This document shows positions 25,388 to 36,475 of a stretch of DNA of 37,758 nt, one piece after another. Origin of the DNA: Oscillospiraceae bacterium (GTDB lineage: Bacteria; Bacillota; Clostridia; Oscillospirales; JAAYXM01); NCBI GenBank assembly GCA_017559985.1, contig JAFYPW010000015.1, positions 1 to 37,758 on the forward strand, written 5' to 3'. The notes under the pieces were generated by a model that was given only the letters and a program-made list of their open reading frames with translations, had not been told where the DNA came from and ran no database searches. Position numbers and translations under genes: made by a program. Position 1 is the first letter of the stretch, and every line of letters starts with the position of its first letter.

Positions 25388-25416
25388 TTGACAAATTGCC
25401 GAAAATATGGTAACAT
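25388..25416 (+). promoter_or_regulatory. Promoter of the helical-protein/aminotransferase operon
   Basis: Consensus TTGACA, 17-base spacer and TAACAT, with TGG (extended -10) just before the -10. Transcription should start at about 25423, exactly where the palindromic operator begins. Confidence 0.8.
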
Positions 25417-25422
25417 AAAAAC

Positions 25423-25448
25423 CGTTATGCGAAACGTTTCGCATAACG
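25423..25448. promoter_or_regulatory. 26-bp perfect palindromic operator, LacI/GalR type
   Basis: Each half is CGTTATGCGAAAC with its exact complement, centred on AAAC/GTTT with the central CG typical of LacI/GalR-family sites. It starts 6 bases after the -10, so bound repressor would block the transcription start. The LacI-family gene at 28062, just behind the two genes of this operon, is the likely binder. No other copy was noticed in the window. Confidence 0.8.
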
Positions 25449-25501: not shown

Positions 25502-26527
25502 ATGGATAGAAATGAATTGAAAGTAAAATTCGAGGCAGGAAGAAAAGCTATCCGCAAAGCTGTTGATTTTCAGCTTGGTTTCCTCAAGGAAGACGGCGGA
25601 TACATCTGGGAGGGTTACGTTCCCGATGCTTTCCACAAGCAGGCATATTCCTGGAACCTTGTAGGCAACAACGAAGAAGCACACAGAATTTTGACCTGGA
25701 TCCGCGATAACAGGCTTCGTGCAAACGGCTCTCTAATTCTCACGGAAGACCCCAACGATACTGTGAACAACGTTGATATTTACAAGCACGCATGGACTTG
25801 CCAGGGTGCACACAGGCTTGGAAGATTTGACGTATCTTACCCGGTTTACAACTTCCTTAAAACTCTTGAAATGCCGTGCGGCGGATTCCCGCTTCATCAC
25901 GGAATGCCCTTTGCACGTATGATGACAACTGCATGGGTTGGTATCACCGCGTTATATTTCAACGATATGGAGCTTGCAGGACGCTGCACAAAGTGGTGTG
26001 TTGATGTTCTTGATGCACAGCCCGACGAAAACAGATTCTACTTCATGACAACTCCGGACGGAAAGCTTGCAACAGAGGAAATGGGCGGAGACTTCATCGA
26101 CAACAAGAAGTTGAAGCAGTGCTACTGGGAGTGCGGCTTTGCCATGATGCTCATGGACAGAATGTACCAGATAACGAAGGACGAGAAATATCTCGGATAC
26201 GCAAAGCGCTTTATGGAGTTCCTCTTCACTTGTGCGGAAGATACATGGAGCTATTGGGGAAGCGGCAAAGCTGCTCTTGGCTGCGCTATGTACTATTCGT
26301 TCACGGGTGATGAGCGTGCTATGGAAGCAGCAGTTAAGTTTATTGACTTTGTTGTTGAAACACAGGTCAAGATTTCAGACAAGGACGGCAAGTATGCAGG
26401 CGGCTTCTGGTATGACGACGAACCTGACATTCTCCTTATTTATGTTGACCACGCCGCCTGCTTCTCCGGATGGGTTCTTGACAGCATTTCCTACATCGAA
26501 AGCAGACTTCGCGCAGAAGGCAAATAA
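25502..26527 (+). CDS. Uncharacterised cytosolic all-alpha protein, glycosidase/terpenoid-cyclase-like helical barrel
   Basis: The 341-residue family is not one I can name with certainty. It has no signal peptide or membrane helix. The sequence is built of amphipathic helix pairs separated by Gly/Trp-rich turns: DGGYIWEGYV (31-40), HAWTCQGAHRLGRFD (96-110), PCGGFPLHHG (125-134), TWSYWGSGKAALG (248-260) and AGGFWYDDEPD (299-309). Such spacing is typical of (alpha/alpha)6 barrels or toroids (six-hairpin glycosidases, C5-epimerases, terpenoid cyclases). Asp and Glu near these turns (Glu37, Asp42, Asp110, Asp305, Asp306, Glu307) are possible catalytic residues. The ATG follows AAAGGAAAAAG. It is the first gene behind the LacI-type operator, with an aminotransferase 21 bases later. 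Many C-ending codons (AAC, TTC, TAC) suggest high expression. A role on a sugar or amino-sugar is inference. Confidence 0.6.
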   Translation: MDRNELKVKFEAGRKAIRKAVDFQLGFLKEDGGYIWEGYVPDAFHKQAYSWNLVGNNEEAHRILTWIRDNRLRANGSLILTEDPNDTVNNVDIYKHAWTCQGAHRLGRFDVSYPVYNFLKTLEMPCGGFPLHHGMPFARMMTTAWVGITALYFNDMELAGRCTKWCVDVLDAQPDENRFYFMTTPDGKLATEEMGGDFIDNKKLKQCYWECGFAMMLMDRMYQITKDEKYLGYAKRFMEFLFTCAEDTWSYWGSGKAALGCAMYYSFTGDERAMEAAVKFIDFVVETQVKISDKDGKYAGGFWYDDEPDILLIYVDHAACFSGWVLDSISYIESRLRAEGK

Positions 26528-26548: not shown

Positions 26549-27925
26549 ATGTATACAGAACAGGAAATTAAAGAAATAAAAGAGTATGCCGCAAAACACG
26601 TGTGCACTCATTATGCAGTAAATGCAGACATTGACAAGCATCCGAAGATTTATGACAGAAGTGACGGCGTTTATGTTTATGACATTCACGGAAAACGTTA
26701 CCTTGACACGTTCGGTTCTCTCCTTACAACTATCTGCGGACACAACACACAGGAAATTATGGACGCTATGAACGAGCAGTTCAAGAAGATTGACTTCTTC
26801 CCAAACTTCGGTGATGACTACTGTGTTCCGGCAATTGAGCTCGCAAAGAGACTTGACAAGGTTATGCCGGAAGGTCTTTCAAGCTACTTCTTCGTATCCA
26901 GCGGTTCGGAAGCAAACGATGCAGCTATGAAGATGGCTCGTTCATACCACTTGAACCGCGGCGACACAAAGCGCTACAAAGTTATTTCAAGACAGGGCTC
27001 ATATCACGGAACAACAGTTACCGCGATGTCGGCAACGGGCATTGACTATTTCAGAAAGAATTATGAGCCGATGGTCAATGATTTTGTAATTCGCGCCAAC
27101 GGTGCAAACTGCAAACACTGCCACCTCGGCAAGAAGAAGGCAACCTGCAATATGGATTGCATCGAGTCGCTCAGACAGACAATCATCGATAACGATCCGG
27201 AGACAATCTCCTGCCTTATAATGGATCCGCTTCCGGGTTCAAACTCGGGATATCCCGTGCCGCCCGACGGTTATCTCCAGAAAGTTCGCGAGATGTGCGA
27301 CGAGTACGGAATTCTCCTCATTTTCGACGAAATCCAGGTCGGTATCGTAAAGAGCGGTGCGATGTTCGTTTCAGAGCTCTTCGGAGTAACACCCGATATT
27401 CTCACAACAGCAAAGTCTCTCACAAACGGCATTATGCCGATGGGTGTCTGCGCAATGAAGCAGAAAATTATGGACAGCTTCCGTGAGAAGCCGGGCAATG
27501 AGTTTGTCAGCGGCAACACGTTTGGCGCTCATAACCTTGCTTGTGCTGCGGCCATTGCAACTCTTGACTACATAGAAAAAAACAAGCTTGTTGAGAGATG
27601 TAACGAGCTCAGCGCTTACATCAAAGAGCAGATTGAAGTTCTTATGAAAAAATACAACTTTGTATCCGGATACGAAGGTCTCGGCCTTATGCTTTGCATA
27701 GAGCTTGCATATACAGACGGAGACGAGCTCATTCCGCTGAATCCGGACTATCACGTAGGAACATTCATCAACGACTTCTGCTATGATAACGGACTTATAA
27801 TGAGAAATAACGACGACCTCATCGTTGTAGCACCTCCGATAGTTTTCACAAAAGAAAATGTTGACGAAATGATGGCTACATTCGATAAAGCACTTGCTGC
27901 TGCAAAAGAAAAATTCCACCTGTAA
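26549..27925 (+). CDS. Class III (omega-type) PLP-dependent aminotransferase
   Basis: Cytosolic transaminase of 458 residues, usually acting on an amino group away from the alpha carbon (omega-amino acids, diamines, taurine, amino sugars). Signatures are SSGSEANDAA (117-126), GSYHGTT (150-156), LIFDEIQVGIVKSG with PLP-contacting Asp260, and TTAKSLTNGIMPMG with catalytic Lys289. The usual DEVQTGFGRTG has become DEIQVGIVKSG. An insertion around 188-204 has C-x2-C-x8-C-x3-C, a possible metal knuckle; related Cys-rich insertions occur in some pyruvate-linked transaminases. It follows the helical protein by 21 bases with CGGAGG before the ATG, as part of the operator-controlled pair. The substrate is unknown. 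It ends at a strong terminator. Confidence 0.9.
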   Translation: MYTEQEIKEIKEYAAKHVCTHYAVNADIDKHPKIYDRSDGVYVYDIHGKRYLDTFGSLLTTICGHNTQEIMDAMNEQFKKIDFFPNFGDDYCVPAIELAKRLDKVMPEGLSSYFFVSSGSEANDAAMKMARSYHLNRGDTKRYKVISRQGSYHGTTVTAMSATGIDYFRKNYEPMVNDFVIRANGANCKHCHLGKKKATCNMDCIESLRQTIIDNDPETISCLIMDPLPGSNSGYPVPPDGYLQKVREMCDEYGILLIFDEIQVGIVKSGAMFVSELFGVTPDILTTAKSLTNGIMPMGVCAMKQKIMDSFREKPGNEFVSGNTFGAHNLACAAAIATLDYIEKNKLVERCNELSAYIKEQIEVLMKKYNFVSGYEGLGLMLCIELAYTDGDELIPLNPDYHVGTFINDFCYDNGLIMRNNDDLIVVAPPIVFTKENVDEMMATFDKALAAAKEKFHL

Positions 27926-27929
27926 TTAG

Positions 27930-27966
27930 AAAACCCGCACGGGAGAATATCTTCCGTGTGGGTTTT
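27930..27966 (+). terminator. Intrinsic terminator after the aminotransferase gene
   Basis: AAAACCCGCACGG pairs with CCGTGTGGGTTTT (one G-U pair) across an 11-base loop. It isolates the two-gene operon from the regulator gene. Confidence 0.85.
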
Positions 27967-27990
27967 CTGCTTTTTGAAAATGGAGCAAGA

Positions 27991-28019
27991 TTGACAAAAA
28001 AATGCTTTGAGTATATAAT
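27991..28019 (+). promoter_or_regulatory. Consensus promoter of the LacI-family gene
   Basis: TTGACA, 17-base spacer and TATAAT: both hexamers match the sigma-A consensus fully. No copy of the palindromic operator is seen here, so the regulator seems constitutive and not self-repressed. Confidence 0.85.
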
Positions 28020-28061
28020 CGTATTGCCGTTTGGGTAGGAAAATCAAAAAGGGTGATATGT

Positions 28062-29129
28062 ATGAAGAGAACAACAATAAAAGATGTTGCACGGGAAGCG
28101 GGAGTTTCTCTCTCAACGGTAAACAAAGCGCTTACAGGGAAAAAGGGAATTTCAAAGGAGCTGAAACAAAAGGTTCTTGATACTGTTGAACGGCTTGATT
28201 ATAAAATCAATCGTGTTGCCGGCTCTCTTGCAAGAAGCACAATAAGAATAGGCATAATTATCCCGAGTGACTGGGAGGATTATTATAGTGACATCTGTGA
28301 CGGTATAGCATATGAAATGGACAATATGGTTGATTTAAAGGTCGAAGGTGTAACCCTTAAATACGCAACGAAAGAAAAAGATTCAGAGAAACAGGTTCTT
28401 GATGCGTTCAGGAAAATGGAAAGGGAAAAAATCAGGGCAATCATTTTTTGTCACGACAACTATTCTACATATGAAAGCGCAGTTGAGTTTGCCACCAGAC
28501 AAAACATAACTGTCATATGTATAGGAATAGGGCTTCGGGACAGGTTTGCAAAGTTTTCAACAGTCATTGAGATAGATGCATATAAATGCGGCAGGATTGC
28601 TGCGGAGTATCTGGAAAACTGTCTGCCTGAAAATTCCGGGGTTGCAGTAATGCTCGGAAGCAAAAGTGTTATGCCTCATGCTGAAAAGTTGCGTGGTTTT
28701 TCCGACAGAATCAAAGAAAGCGGAAAGCTCAGACTTTGTGCCACAATCGAAACGGAAGATGATGACAGAGCTTCAGAAAGTCTGACATATGAGCTCATCA
28801 GAAAAAAGAAGCCGGACGGAATTTATGTTGCAACGGGTGCGGTCAGCGGAGTTTGTCGTGCGGTTTCCGAAAGCGGGAAGGCAATGAAAATAATTGCAAC
28901 TGACCTGTCAGCAGATTGCAGAAATTATATCAAAAAAGATATAGTCAGTGCAACGCTGTATCAGAACACCTTCGCTCAGGGAATCGTTGCTGTCGATATG
29001 TTGTACAAGCATTTTTCCACGGAAGCCAGACTACCTGAAAAGCTTTTGGTTGCACCGGTTCTTTTCACGAGGGAATGCCTCCCGGAGGAAGGCAAAAAGG
29101 TGACGCTTACAACAATCGCCGATTTTTAA
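28062..29129 (+). CDS. LacI/GalR-family transcriptional regulator
   Basis: DNA-binding repressor of 355 residues. The N-terminal helix-turn-helix (about 4-24) reads TTIKDVAREAGVSLSTVNKALTG, with a recognition helix (SLSTVNKAL) that differs from the usual TVSRVLN by Asn-Lys. The hinge follows (YKINRVAGSLAR, 47-58), and a type-I periplasmic-binding-protein-like sensor domain occupies the rest (IGIIIPSDW, ATGAVSGVC). An in-frame GTG at 28053 overlaps the ribosome site, so the ATG at 28062 is chosen. It sits directly behind the operon headed by the LacI-type palindrome and is the obvious candidate to bind it. The effector is probably the pathway substrate, a sugar-like compound by family precedent. 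Confidence 0.92.
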   Translation: MKRTTIKDVAREAGVSLSTVNKALTGKKGISKELKQKVLDTVERLDYKINRVAGSLARSTIRIGIIIPSDWEDYYSDICDGIAYEMDNMVDLKVEGVTLKYATKEKDSEKQVLDAFRKMEREKIRAIIFCHDNYSTYESAVEFATRQNITVICIGIGLRDRFAKFSTVIEIDAYKCGRIAAEYLENCLPENSGVAVMLGSKSVMPHAEKLRGFSDRIKESGKLRLCATIETEDDDRASESLTYELIRKKKPDGIYVATGAVSGVCRAVSESGKAMKIIATDLSADCRNYIKKDIVSATLYQNTFAQGIVAVDMLYKHFSTEARLPEKLLVAPVLFTRECLPEEGKKVTLTTIADF

Positions 29130-31448: not shown

Positions 31449-32741
31449 ATGAAATTTACGGCAGTTGGTGACATCATCATCCAGAAAAGAATTTTTGAGG
31501 GTTATGAAGGCTTTTCAGAGCTTGCTCCGTTTATAAGAGAGGGTGATGCGCGCTTCTTCAACCTCGAAACCACACTCAACCATGAGGGCGAAACCTGCGC
31601 TTCTCAGTTCAGCGGCGGTACATATCTCCGAACAAACCCCGAGGTTCTTGATGACCTCCGCGGTTTTGGATTCAATATGACAAGCTTTAACAACAACCAC
31701 GTTCTCGACTTCTGGTATGACGGTTTCAAGTGCACTCTTGACGCGGTTAAGAAGAGCGGACTTGTCCACAGCGGTGCGGGAATGAACCTTGCCGAAGCTT
31801 CTGCTCCGAAATATCTTGAAACAAAAAACGGCCGTGTTGCGCTCATTTCAGTAAGCACATCGTTTGGAGCATCTGCTATGGCAGGAGAGCAGACGGCCCG
31901 AGTTCCCGGAAGACCCGGTATAAACGGTCTCCGCGTCGGAAGCTATGTTGAACTTCCGCGTGAGGACCTTGACTACATAAAGAAGATTGCAGACAAAACC
32001 AAGATTAATGTTGAAACCGAGATTATCCGCAAGGAAGGTTATTACGCAGAGCTTGCAGACGATGAGGCAGAGTTTGGCAGCATGAAGTTCAAGCTCGGTG
32101 ACACTGCGCGCGTTGTAAAGACAATAAACAAAGAAGATATTGCTCGCGTAGATAAGGCAATTTATGAAGCAAAGCTCCAGGCTGATTATATTATGATTTC
32201 AATCCATTCACATGGTCTTGCCGGCGATGCAAAGGAAAATCCGTCAGAATACCTTATTGATTTTGCTCATCATTGCATCGATGAGGGCGCAAATGCGATT
32301 GTGGGCCATGGTCCGCACCTTCTCCGTCCGATTGAAGTATATAAGGATTGCCCGATTTTCTACTCACTCGGTGACTTTGTGTTGCAGCTTTATGATATTG
32401 AGTTTGCGCCCGAGGATTTCTTTGCAAAACACGGACTCCACGCTCATTCATCAACTGTCCACGAGCTTTTGAAAAAGCGCTCAAAGGACTTCACCGTCGG
32501 TCTTATGACAGACCCGAGAATGTTCCGCGCAGTTATTCCGCTCTGGGAAACAGAGGGCGGAAAGTTGACGAAGCTTACGCTTATGCCGGTTGAAATGTCC
32601 ATGGACGGCAACCGCTCCGAGCAGGGACTTCCCAGACGCAGCAAGAACCCCGAAATTGCAGAATATCTCGCAAAGATGTGCGAGCCGTTTGGTACAAAGA
32701 TAAAGATGAAGAAGGATGGACTCATCACCTGCGAATGGTAA
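31449..32741 (+). CDS. CapA-family (PGA-synthesis-like metallophosphatase fold) protein
   Basis: The 430-residue protein has the CapA/PgsA domain: VGDIIIQ (Asp8), FFNLETTL (Glu40), FNNNHVLD (Asn83, His84), SIHSHG, VGHGPHLLRPIE and SLGDFV. These are the metal-ligand positions of a calcineurin-like phosphoesterase fold. Unlike PgsA of poly-gamma-glutamate synthesis, it has no membrane anchor or signal peptide, so it should act in the cytosol. An insertion (about 180-225) holds acidic and charged helices. It starts 3 bases after the M20 gene, whose end supplies the GGAGG ribosome site. A hydrolytic role on a peptide or glycan fragment together with the M20 enzyme is inference. C-ending codons suggest strong expression. 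Confidence 0.82.
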   Translation: MKFTAVGDIIIQKRIFEGYEGFSELAPFIREGDARFFNLETTLNHEGETCASQFSGGTYLRTNPEVLDDLRGFGFNMTSFNNNHVLDFWYDGFKCTLDAVKKSGLVHSGAGMNLAEASAPKYLETKNGRVALISVSTSFGASAMAGEQTARVPGRPGINGLRVGSYVELPREDLDYIKKIADKTKINVETEIIRKEGYYAELADDEAEFGSMKFKLGDTARVVKTINKEDIARVDKAIYEAKLQADYIMISIHSHGLAGDAKENPSEYLIDFAHHCIDEGANAIVGHGPHLLRPIEVYKDCPIFYSLGDFVLQLYDIEFAPEDFFAKHGLHAHSSTVHELLKKRSKDFTVGLMTDPRMFRAVIPLWETEGGKLTKLTLMPVEMSMDGNRSEQGLPRRSKNPEIAEYLAKMCEPFGTKIKMKKDGLITCEW

Positions 32742-32794: not shown

Positions 32795-33541
32795 CTATAT
32801 GTGACGGAGACGCCAGAACCATTTGTCCATATTTTTCTGGTTGAGGCGGTCGCCGTCCGCACCGTTGCCGCTTACCCATACATCGGGCTTGATACCACGC
32901 TCTGCGAGAATTTCGCATACCTTTGCATTTATCGAGTCAACAATGAAAAGATTTATAATTGTCGATGCGGGGCTTGCCTTATATGTGCAACCTTCGATCG
33001 GAACAATAGCCTCGCCGATGGGCGTATAGTCGTTGATGACAACGTCTGCAAGCTCATAAAGGCTCGCGCCTGACGGATGGCGGTTGTGTTGTTTGCGGTC
33101 AACCGTATCCGAGAGCTCGGGGCAGGTGATTGCAATAAGCGGAATGTTGTGCTCACGGCAATAGTTTGCCGTGTCGATGGTAACCGCGTTTATGCCAAAG
33201 GCATTTATTTGAAGCATAACGTCGCCTTCTTTAACGCGGTAATAGCGCATAACCTCGTTTGCATAGCCGACCACGCGCTCATTCCAGCGTGTAGCGCCGT
33301 GCTCACACGAAAGGCCCGGGTCGAGAATCGCATTTGCACAACAGAGATTGCCTGCGCGGTGGCACATTTCTATTGCTGCCATGTTGGAGTGTCCGCCCGA
33401 ACCGAAAATGTGGAACATACCGCCCGCCTGAATGGTATCGGCAATAATCGTTGCGGCTTTTTCAATGTTTTGTGACTGTTCTTTTACAACGCGGTCAAGT
33501 GTTGCGATAACTTCTTTATAAAAAATGAGTGTTGAATCCAT
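32795..33541 (-). CDS. SIS-domain sugar-phosphate-binding protein, COG4821-like (copy B)
   Basis: Cytosolic protein of 248 residues with one sugar isomerase (SIS) domain. FGSGGHSN lies at 46-53, followed by NAILDPG, HGA, QINAFGINAVT, RHPSGASL and PIGEAI. This places it in the COG4821/UPF0309 group, whose reaction is not established; a phosphosugar isomerase or amino-sugar-phosphate-binding role is inferred from the fold. It is a full-length paralogue of the gene directly upstream (33566-34318), sharing GGHSN, NAILDPG, RHPSG and GD-x-LN at equivalent places. It lacks the MurQ etherase signature. The ATG follows CGGAGGAG, and the gene is 24 bases after copy A. Confidence 0.82.
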   Translation of the reverse strand: MDSTLIFYKEVIATLDRVVKEQSQNIEKAATIIADTIQAGGMFHIFGSGGHSNMAAIEMCHRAGNLCCANAILDPGLSCEHGATRWNERVVGYANEVMRYYRVKEGDVMLQINAFGINAVTIDTANYCREHNIPLIAITCPELSDTVDRKQHNRHPSGASLYELADVVINDYTPIGEAIVPIEGCTYKASPASTIINLFIVDSINAKVCEILAERGIKPDVWVSGNGADGDRLNQKNMDKWFWRLRHI

Positions 33542-33565
33542 AATTACTCCTCCGTTTTTTAGGGC

Positions 33566-34318
33566 TTACAGGTGGCGGATTTTAGGCAGAAGCTCATCTT
33601 CATAGCGTTTGTTGAGGCTGTCGCCATCGGGCATATTTGCGCTCTGCCATACGGCGGGGGTGATACCCTGGTCAAGAAGCTCCTGCGCTGTCTGCATCAT
33701 AAGAAGATTTATTGAAAAACAATTTGCATATGTTGAGGTTGAGCCCATCTTCTGCTCCATACCCGGAAGCTTTATAATCGCATCTCCAAGCGGGAGATGG
33801 TTGTCTATATAAACATCAACAAGGTCTGGAAGATTCTGACCTGACGGATGTCGGCTCGGCGCGTCCTTGGGTACGGTGTGGGCAAAGGATGTAGACGTTA
33901 TACCGATTGATTTTATTCCGCGCTCACGGCAGAGAAGCGCAGAGTCAACCGTCATTGAATTGATTCCGTATGCATTGACGATGATAAGGACATCTCCCTC
34001 GGAAAGTCTGTACGAATCAAAAACAGCCCTTGCATAGCCCGGTGTGCGCTCGATGATGTTTGAACGCTTCGCACCGTGGATTACGTTTGTACCCGGGTCG
34101 AGAATTGCGTTTATGTGGACAAGCCCGCCTGCACGCCAGAGCACCTCTTCGACTGCAATGTTGGAGTGTCCGCCGGGACCGATAACGTTTATAAGCCTTC
34201 CGTTTTTGACGGCATCTGCGCAGAGTTTTGCACCGCGCTTTATGTTTTCCTCCTGTGTATCTGCGATGGCCGTAACAAGATTTACAACGCCGTCGCGGTA
34301 TTCGGATGCGATAGACAT
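33566..34318 (-). CDS. SIS-domain sugar-phosphate-binding protein, COG4821-like (copy A)
   Basis: Cytosolic SIS-domain protein of 250 residues and first gene of the minus-strand pair. Motifs are IGPGGHSN at 46-53, NAILDPGTNVIHGA, IVNAYGINSMT, RHPSGQNLPDLVDV, PLGDAI and GDSLN. The sugar-phosphate loop differs from copy B (GPGG against GSGG), and the region after RHPSG also differs, so the two probably have divided roles or form a heteromer. SIS active sites are often made at subunit interfaces. The ATG follows CAGGAGG. The gene is divergent from an AraC regulator across a 162-base gap that holds promoters for both. The substrate is unknown. Confidence 0.82.
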   Translation of the reverse strand: MSIASEYRDGVVNLVTAIADTQEENIKRGAKLCADAVKNGRLINVIGPGGHSNIAVEEVLWRAGGLVHINAILDPGTNVIHGAKRSNIIERTPGYARAVFDSYRLSEGDVLIIVNAYGINSMTVDSALLCRERGIKSIGITSTSFAHTVPKDAPSRHPSGQNLPDLVDVYIDNHLPLGDAIIKLPGMEQKMGSTSTYANCFSINLLMMQTAQELLDQGITPAVWQSANMPDGDSLNKRYEDELLPKIRHL

Positions 34319-34348
34319 AACAAAACCTCCTGCTTTCAGTTTAAATAA

Positions 34349-34377
34349 ATGATATAACTATCCTAAATGGTTTTCAA
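34349..34377 (-). promoter_or_regulatory. Promoter of the SIS gene pair
   Basis: Minus-strand TTGAAA, 17-base spacer and TATCAT, about 31 bases upstream of the ATG of copy A. Confidence 0.5.
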
Positions 34378-34401
34378 AGAGTATACTATTCAATGTTTTG
34401 G

Positions 34402-34427
34402 ATATTCTACGATTTTCATTAGAATAT
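34402..34427. promoter_or_regulatory. Candidate operator in the SIS/araC-type divergent region
   Basis: ATATTCT and AGAATAT form an inverted repeat with 12 bases between arms, set between the two divergent promoters. It may bind the AraC-family protein encoded alongside. The AT-rich context makes this tentative. Confidence 0.35.
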
Positions 34428-34428
34428 A

Positions 34429-34457
34429 TTGTTATTCGGGTTTTACCATTGTATAAT
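34429..34457 (+). promoter_or_regulatory. Promoter of the AraC-family/NamZ-like unit
   Basis: TTGTTA, 17-base spacer and TATAAT, 24 bases before the ATG at 34481. Confidence 0.6.
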
Positions 34458-34480
34458 TACCTTGAAGAGAGGTGACGGGA

Positions 34481-35290
34481 ATGTCTGAAAGCATACCGAA
34501 AAGATGGCATATAGACGAGAACACATACGATGCTTATACAGTGGAAAGTCTTAAAACGGTAGATACGCACTGGCATTCGCATTTTCTCATAAACCTCTTT
34601 ACAGAAGGTCAGGGAATTCAGGAGATAAACGGAAAAAGCTATCCCATCCGCCGCGGAAGCATAATAATAATCTCGCCGCTTGATTTTCACAGAAACATAG
34701 TCAGCGATGAAGAAAAAGTTTCTGTCTGCGCGGTGAAATTTTCTGATAAGTTTTTTTACGATTCTCTTGCTGACCTTTGTTCTCTTGAAGATTTTCCGAT
34801 TGTGACAACACTTTCCGACGAGGACTATGAAACAGCAAAAACACTCTTTGAGCTTCTGCTTTCTCAGCAGGAAAAGAAAACGCTTATTGGTGCGGATAAG
34901 TTTTCGCGAAGCCTTATTGAGCAGCTTGTAATCCTCGCGTTGCGCGCCGTGGGCAAGAAAAAGAGCGAAGGCAATGTAACAAAAATGCGCCGTGCTCTCG
35001 GATATATCCATTACAATTTTCGTAACGGCTTAAAGGTGGAAGACGTTGCAAAGCATATAGGATATTCTCCGAACTATTTCAGTTCGGAGTTCAAGCGGGA
35101 AACGGGAATTGAATTTCAGAAATACCTGCAAGATTTAAGGCTTGATTTCGCAATGAATCTTTTAAGGTTTTCAAAGATTACCATAACAGAGGCGTGTTTT
35201 GAATCCGGTTTTAAAACACTGTCGCATTTCTCACAGACATTCAAGAAAAAATTCGGAACAGCTCCCGGCAAAATAAAAAAGGAGAAATGA
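34481..35290 (+). CDS. AraC-family transcriptional regulator
   Basis: Cytosolic activator of 269 residues. An N-terminal cupin sensor (about 20-130) shows DTHWHSHF, QEINGKSYPIRRGS and ISPLDFH, typical of sugar-sensing members. Two C-terminal helix-turn-helix motifs follow (about 175-265): LKVEDVAKHIGYSPNYFSSEFK, and ITEACFESGFKTLSHFSQTFKKKFG with TAPGKIK. An in-frame GTG at 34472 lies inside GAGAGGTG; the ATG at 34481, spaced for that ribosome site, is chosen. It is divergent from the SIS pair and 9 bases before the NamZ-like gene, so it probably controls both. The effector is unknown. Confidence 0.92.
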   Translation: MSESIPKRWHIDENTYDAYTVESLKTVDTHWHSHFLINLFTEGQGIQEINGKSYPIRRGSIIIISPLDFHRNIVSDEEKVSVCAVKFSDKFFYDSLADLCSLEDFPIVTTLSDEDYETAKTLFELLLSQQEKKTLIGADKFSRSLIEQLVILALRAVGKKKSEGNVTKMRRALGYIHYNFRNGLKVEDVAKHIGYSPNYFSSEFKRETGIEFQKYLQDLRLDFAMNLLRFSKITITEACFESGFKTLSHFSQTFKKKFGTAPGKIKKEK

Positions 35291-35299
35291 GGGGAGAAA

Positions 35300-36475
35300 A
35301 TGAAAAAGTGGAAGAACGGTGCGGTCACCCTTGCATGTGATGAACTTCGCGAGAGGATAAAGGGGAAAAAGATTGCGCTTATGATGAATACAACGGCGCT
35401 GCATAACGACGGCAGGCTTCTTATAGATGTCATCGTAAACGAAAAGTGGGCAGAGGTTGAGTTCTTTTTTGGTATGGAGCACGGCGTGCGAGGAGACCTT
35501 TATGCAAACGACGGTCATCTCTCCGACCGCGATTCCAAGACAGGTATAAAAATCGTCAATCTTTACGACTACCCGCGGCTTTCTCCACCTGTTGAGTGGA
35601 TAAAAGAGGTAGATGCGGTCGTGTTCTCGGCGCAGGATGTCGGAGTTCGCCACTGGACATATACGCCATGGCTTATGTTGCTTATTCAGTCGTGTGCAAC
35701 GGCAGGGCGTGAGGTTATAGTACTCGACCGTCCGAATCCCATCCGCGGTGATATTGTTGAGGGCGCACCCGCTGAGAAAAAGTATGCGGGCGGCGACCTT
35801 CTTTCAGGTTTTGAATATCCGCTTCGCCACGGTATGACGATAGGCGAACTTGCGACAATGTATAACGATATAAAAAATGTCGGTGCAGACCTCACGGTTC
35901 TTAAAATGCAGGGGTGGCGTCGCGATATGTGGTATGACGAAACAGGGCTTGTGTGGGTGCCGGGAAGCCCGAATATGCCCGATATGGACACTCCTTTGTT
36001 CTTTGCAGCAACAGGACTTATGCAGGCATCGTCCTTTTCTCTCGGGATCGGCACAACAACGCCGTTTGAGTTTGTCGGAGACGTCGGCTTTGACGGTCAG
36101 AAGCTTTCAGATACACTCAATGCGCTTGACCTTGCGGGAGTATATTTCATCCCGAAGCACTATATGGCGATGACATACAGAAACCCCGAGGAGGGCACAG
36201 GTCGAAAGCTCACACTTTGCGACGGTGCGTTTATGGTCATAAACGACAGAGACGCATTCCGTCCGGTAGAAACGCAGCTCCATATTATGGAAACCGTGAG
36301 AAATCTTTTCGGCGATAAGGTTGACTTTGAGTTTGACCTTGCGCGCTCACGTATGGGCACGGACAAGATATGCGATGCTCTGAAGGAAGGCAGGAGTCTT
36401 TACCCCATTATTGAAGAGTGGAGAGCGGGCGCGGAAGAGTTTAAAAGAATGCGCGAAAAATATCTTTTGTATTAA
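35300..36475 (+). CDS. DUF1343 protein, NamZ-like exo-beta-N-acetylmuramidase (GH171-like)
   Basis: Probable glycosidase that removes non-reducing N-acetylmuramic acid from peptidoglycan fragments, as shown for Bacillus subtilis NamZ (YbbC). The 391 residues have the family motifs in order: FFGMEHGVRGD (Glu60, His61), VVFSAQDVGVRHWTYTPW, VLDRPNPIRGDIVEGAP, RHGMTIGELATMYN, GLVWVPGSPNMPDMDT and FSLGIGTTTPFEFVG. The common relatives are exported; this one starts MKKWKNGAVTLACDEL with no signal peptide, so it should act in the cytosol. GGGGAG precedes the ATG, 9 bases after the AraC regulator. Activity on muropeptide fragments is inferred, and a related amino sugar is possible. Confidence 0.88.
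   Translation: MKKWKNGAVTLACDELRERIKGKKIALMMNTTALHNDGRLLIDVIVNEKWAEVEFFFGMEHGVRGDLYANDGHLSDRDSKTGIKIVNLYDYPRLSPPVEWIKEVDAVVFSAQDVGVRHWTYTPWLMLLIQSCATAGREVIVLDRPNPIRGDIVEGAPAEKKYAGGDLLSGFEYPLRHGMTIGELATMYNDIKNVGADLTVLKMQGWRRDMWYDETGLVWVPGSPNMPDMDTPLFFAATGLMQASSFSLGIGTTTPFEFVGDVGFDGQKLSDTLNALDLAGVYFIPKHYMAMTYRNPEEGTGRKLTLCDGAFMVINDRDAFRPVETQLHIMETVRNLFGDKVDFEFDLARSRMGTDKICDALKEGRSLYPIIEEWRAGAEEFKRMREKYLLY

Follow-up and report, generated by a model that had tools for sequence, protein, structure and literature searches.

Organization of the Locus

The window analyzed here is the whole 37,758-nucleotide stretch of contig JAFYPW010000015.1 from an Oscillospiraceae bacterium (GCA_017559985.1). It harbors, at positions 25502-26527 of the forward strand, a gene for an AprG-like (α/α)6-barrel protein of 341 residues, a candidate Schiff-base (trans)aldolase. 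This gene has an ATG start codon with the ribosome-binding site AGAAAGGAAA 5' of it, and contains no internal stops. Relatives of the encoded protein with 66-87% identity are present in other Clostridia MAGs. Comparison with the related locus L004 yields substitution rates of 0.14, 0.08 and 0.52 at codon positions 1, 2 and 3, respectively. As the substitutions relative to its relatives occur mainly at the third codon position, the open reading frame is a genuine gene under purifying selection.

The AprG-like gene is followed, 21 bp further 3', by its conserved neighbor and partner, a class-III aminotransferase gene (26549-27925, forward strand; PF00202, 1e-86), and the two form one transcription unit. 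A sigma-70-type promoter for this two-gene operon, TTGACA-17-TAACAT, is found at 25388-25416 on the forward strand (10/12 in a consensus scan). Just 3' of its -10 element lies a 26-bp perfect palindrome, CGTTATGCGAAACGTTTCGCATAACG (25423-25448), with the AACGTT core that is typical of LacI-family operators. This palindrome is a single-copy element in the genome within 3 mismatches, and is a putative operator at which a LacI protein may bind. The operon ends at an intrinsic terminator with a 20-pair stem and a T tail (27927-27969, forward strand). Beyond it, a consensus promoter, TTGACA-17-TATAAT (27991-28019, forward strand; 12/12), precedes the gene for a LacI-family protein with a sugar-binding-type domain (28053-29129, forward strand; PF00356 4e-13, PF13407 9e-26), the probable local regulator of the two-gene operon. 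No common operator was found across the related loci beyond AAACGTTT-like cores, and the long perfect palindrome occurs in the window only.

A Distant Relative of AprG

By inspection, the N-terminus of the window protein, MDRNELKVKFEAGRKAIRKAV, lacks a signal peptide. The AlphaFold2 model, based on a seven-sequence alignment (pLDDT 83.6, pTM 0.86), consists of helix pairs throughout and almost nothing else, with low confidence for residues 291-312. The structural neighbors that fold searches return for this model are without exception α/α toroids. The initial annotation had proposed a cytosolic helical barrel without a signal peptide next to a transaminase. The N-terminus bears out the missing signal peptide, the paired helices of the predicted model and the toroid neighbors confirm the barrel and support a cytosolic one, and the transaminase is the class-III enzyme described above, a neighbor that proved both conserved and informative. 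That annotation also held that the family was not recognized; on its own terms this is refuted, because sequence and fold searches both match the protein clearly and strongly to the AprG family, whose function is known.

AprG of Streptoalloteichus tenebrarius, the transaldolase that forms carbon-carbon bonds to construct the octose of the antibiotic apramycin (PDB 9c95, 9c9b, 9lfi, 9lfq and 9lfy), is the closest solved protein by sequence as well as by fold. A phmmer search of PDB sequences with the window protein finds AprG at 4e-16, and the family profile finds it at 6e-20, aligning residues 16-304 at ~22% identity; one relative of the window protein is 26% identical to AprG over 263 aa. In a Foldseek search with the model, 14 AprG chains rank first (5e-15 to 1.6e-13, TM ~0.83), and the next family, the N-acylglucosamine 2-epimerases, follows at 4.5e-6. 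Likewise, VIA gives AprG a Z of 38.4, at 2.5 Å over 321 residues, and the next family a Z of 25.7. The PDB titles describe AprG as a transaldolase and include complexes with GlcNAc and GalNAc. According to PMC11033246, which cites Fan et al. 2023, AprG is the aldolase that makes the apramycin octose core, and 6'-oxolividamine is the intermediate preceding the AprG octose step. The AprG mechanism considered below is drawn from these PDB titles, the modified residue, this one citing paper and general knowledge.

Homology and the predicted structure indicate that the window protein belongs to the AprG family, as a distant relative of AprG itself. The two share full-length homology, the same barrel, an equivalent lysine, a GAHxLGRF motif and a length of ~340 aa. 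They differ in that identity is only ~22%, with little of the AprG sequence retained outside GAHxLGRF and the lysine region, and in their surroundings: AprG belongs to an actinomycete antibiotic biosynthesis cluster, whereas the window gene, from Clostridia, shares a two-gene operon under LacI/ROK regulation with a class-III aminotransferase gene. An aminoglycoside biosynthesis context was not found around the window gene or at the related loci, where the neighbors are an aminotransferase, LacI/ROK regulators and sugar ABC transport. This difference, being one of context and not of mechanism, speaks against orthology with AprG but not against family membership. The window protein is thus not likely an AprG orthologue, and its substrate and acceptor must differ from those of AprG.

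A Lysine Conserved across the Family

The sequence of chain 9lfq_B, common to 9lfy, has an X in SCGXAGV where other AprG chains carry K. The X, present in entries that contain a sugar ligand, denotes a modified lysine and does not give the type of modification. This AprG lysine, modified in the GlcNAc/GalNAc complexes, aligns with Lys256 (WGSGKAAL) of the window protein, encoded at 26267-26269 of the forward strand. Lys256 is one of 11 invariant columns among eight sequences, three of them remote: AprG and two homologues encoded on plasmids. These three are 19-23% identical to the window protein, the two plasmid-encoded ones at ~19%. When scored with the family profile, the weak toroid matches that cover this column have N, A, C, L, T, H, W, Y, M or V there; the sole K among them, in L020, comes from a low-scoring gapped alignment. 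There is thus good evidence, short of proof, that Lys256 is the Schiff-base lysine. The acidic, hydrolase-like active site that had been proposed initially is not favored, as the residue kept across the wider family is Lys256. Of the acids named at that time, Asp42, Asp110, Asp305 and Glu307 are indeed invariant, in close relatives only, and Glu37 varies between E, D and P.

Conservation of the Gene Pair and its Neighborhood

The AprG-like family is rare: of 391 class genomes, 5 contain a match, either full-length or cut off by a contig end. None were found among 398 phylum genomes besides the window genome itself, and deep-profile searches across the phylum returned only short toroid-protein matches, almost all without the lysine. 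The AprG-like and aminotransferase genes are adjacent in every complete locus (L002, L003, L004, L005, L006, L007, L010/L012, L029 and L030). Close relatives of the aminotransferase (E up to 1e-100) are found in 4 of 381 class-sample genomes, all four of which also have the AprG-like gene. In the fifth carrier, G759, the adjacent aminotransferase is 53% identical and is missing from this list, probably because the genome falls outside the slightly smaller 381-genome sample.

The exception to adjacency is the fragmented genome G642, and the statement that the aminotransferase is always adjacent was consequently rejected. Here, the aminotransferase contig contains no AprG-like gene within 1.4 kb upstream, and two partial AprG-like copies run out at contig ends. 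In this set of contigs (L008, L009 and L053, from G642 or its near twin), both copies stop at exactly residue 175, which points to a probable duplication of the gene that the assembler failed to join. The G642 aminotransferase, on its separate contig, is flanked by an elongation factor P-like gene and an integrase-like gene. Elsewhere, the AprG-like relative at L005:2116-3123 has one in-frame stop in a low-coverage contig, the mark of either a pseudogene or a misassembly.

LacI- or ROK-type regulators adjoin the related loci, where the LacI-type gene is divergent and adjacent. In L029 (the G759 locus), the pair is followed by ABC sugar transport genes, for a solute-binding protein and two permeases, and by Gfo/Idh oxidoreductase, PIG-L deacetylase and NagB-like genes. 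The same set is present in L006, with the NagB-like gene upstream on the opposite strand. In L004, a separate ABC transporter and a GH88 gene lie downstream. The substrates of PIG-L deacetylases and NagB deaminases are derivatives of N-acetylglucosamine and glucosamine, and such neighbors fit the AprG complexes with GlcNAc. These surroundings suggest sugar metabolism, probably that of an N-acetylamino sugar; the window's own locus lacks the deacetylase and NagB-like genes, so that the amino-sugar reading rests on L029 and L006.

The plasmid search with query P0001 gave no matches, and with AprG as the query it gave two remote homologues, both annotated as hypothetical. WP_229581254.1, on a Rhodococcus rhodochrous plasmid (L032:7980-8990), is accompanied by SDR and alpha/beta hydrolase genes, with CoA-ester genes nearby. 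QXW42399.1, on a Klebsiella grimontii plasmid (L033:7734-8711), has AMP-binding, ATP-grasp and HAD genes alongside, which look like a small biosynthetic cluster. Both proteins keep the lysine and align over most of their length with the window protein but, unlike the window locus, the nearby annotation lists no aminotransferase partner.

Proposed Chemistry and Alternative Identities

Homology to AprG, together with the candidate catalytic lysine, makes it fairly likely that the window protein works as an aldolase or transaldolase through a Schiff base. In this scheme Lys256, close to where a barrel helix begins, would attack the aldehyde at C1 of a sugar in its open-chain form, probably one that carries a 2-acetamido or 2-amino group. 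Breakage of the C2-C3 bond would leave a two-carbon enamine on the lysine, which would either be hydrolyzed off, as in an aldolase, or added to a second aldehyde, as in a transaldolase. The class-III aminotransferase could supply an aldehyde from an amine or process the aldehyde product, and a sugar-sensing LacI- or ROK-type regulator would control the two-gene transcription unit. Such a regulator acting on one transcription unit suggests that the module probably serves inducible (amino-)sugar metabolism. For the window system, we infer the Schiff-base catalysis, the substrate class and direction, the regulator binding site and the coupling to the aminotransferase; no reaction scheme that joins an AprG-type aldol step to class-III transamination is obvious yet.

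Lys256 might instead be used for another Schiff-base reaction, such as isomerization, dehydration or C2 epimerization of an amino aldose, without any C-C bond chemistry. This would be consistent with a conserved lysine in a setting where the acceptor of AprG, an aminoglycoside intermediate, is an unlikely substrate. It also fits the epimer of the product that is held in one AprG structure and the quite different clusters in which the divergent Rhodococcus and Klebsiella homologues sit. The sole characterized family member, however, performs aldol chemistry, and we consider a reaction of this other kind unlikely.

Enzymes of the N-acylglucosamine 2-epimerase or cellobiose 2-epimerase type act on sugars using the same (α/α)6 barrel, with paired histidines in place of the lysine. 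By fold they rank next after AprG (VIA Z 24-25.7), the operon context is one of sugar metabolism, and H45, H61, H96, H104 and H317 are invariant in close relatives of the window protein. Of these, only H104 aligns with an AprG histidine, and no histidine is invariant in the wider family. Furthermore, the VIA Z of the epimerases is ~13 below that of AprG (~25 versus 38), and these families give no sequence match to the window protein in the PDB at E up to 1, against 6e-20 for AprG. Nor did the window protein match the N-acylglucosamine 2-epimerase superfamily in Pfam, although absence from the PDB and Pfam matches does not amount to exclusion; an NCBIfam scan of the window protein returned no matches. 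An epimerase or isomerase of this type appears quite unlikely.

A glycoside hydrolase of an (α/α)6 family (GH127, GH88 or GH76) is highly improbable: PF07944 (GH127) passes its cut-off (26.6 versus 24.9 bits), PF07470 (GH88) matches at 8.5e-5 and a genuine GH88 gene is found at one related locus, but the Pfam matches lie in the helical repeat and span just 85-95 residues, against model lengths of 352-376 positions, the full-length sequence and fold match AprG instead, and the initially named Glu37 is not conserved. With GH127 and GH88, the window protein shares only short, local helical-repeat profile matches of partial coverage, and the Pfam assignment was rejected on these grounds. No full-length GH127 catalytic domain was found, the best stretch covering 95 of 376 profile positions, and the GH88 score of 22.1 bits, over 97 of 352 positions, is below the curated cut-off of 26.6. 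As a repeat match of 85 residues is enough to pass the GH127 cut-off, an automatic pipeline would probably call the window protein a beta-L-arabinofuranosidase in error. Recognizing the relationship to AprG helps to keep such proteins from being labeled GH127 or GH88 hydrolases.

Possible Implications for Amino-Sugar Metabolism

To our knowledge, almost all Schiff-base aldolases are TIM barrels, AprG being a recent exception that is built on a glycosidase/epimerase-like helical barrel and is known so far only from antibiotic biosynthesis. A compact, regulated and conserved operon that pairs such an aldolase with an aminotransferase in gut-type Clostridia would mean that AprG chemistry is wider, and the present locus suggests that this unusual chemistry also serves ordinary (amino-)sugar metabolism. 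We tentatively propose that gut and rumen Clostridia may possess a sugar pathway not described before, in which the C2-C3 bond of an N-acetylamino sugar is broken or formed by an AprG-type aldolase with a helical-barrel fold, acting in tandem with a class-III aminotransferase. If so, the apramycin octose enzyme was recruited from, or shares an ancestor with, a primary-metabolism aldolase family of unusual fold. The window operon would then offer a tractable two-enzyme system and a possible new amino-sugar route.

Two further features lie downstream in the window. The gene at 31449-32741 encodes a PGA_cap-family protein that also matches the model of the lasso-peptide Trp epimerase MslH, at 203 bits and thus below the cut-off of 700. 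At 32795-36475, two tandem SIS sugar-isomerase-type genes face genes for an AraC regulator and a NamZ exo-beta-N-acetylmuramidase, probably constituting a separate muropeptide or amino-sugar unit.
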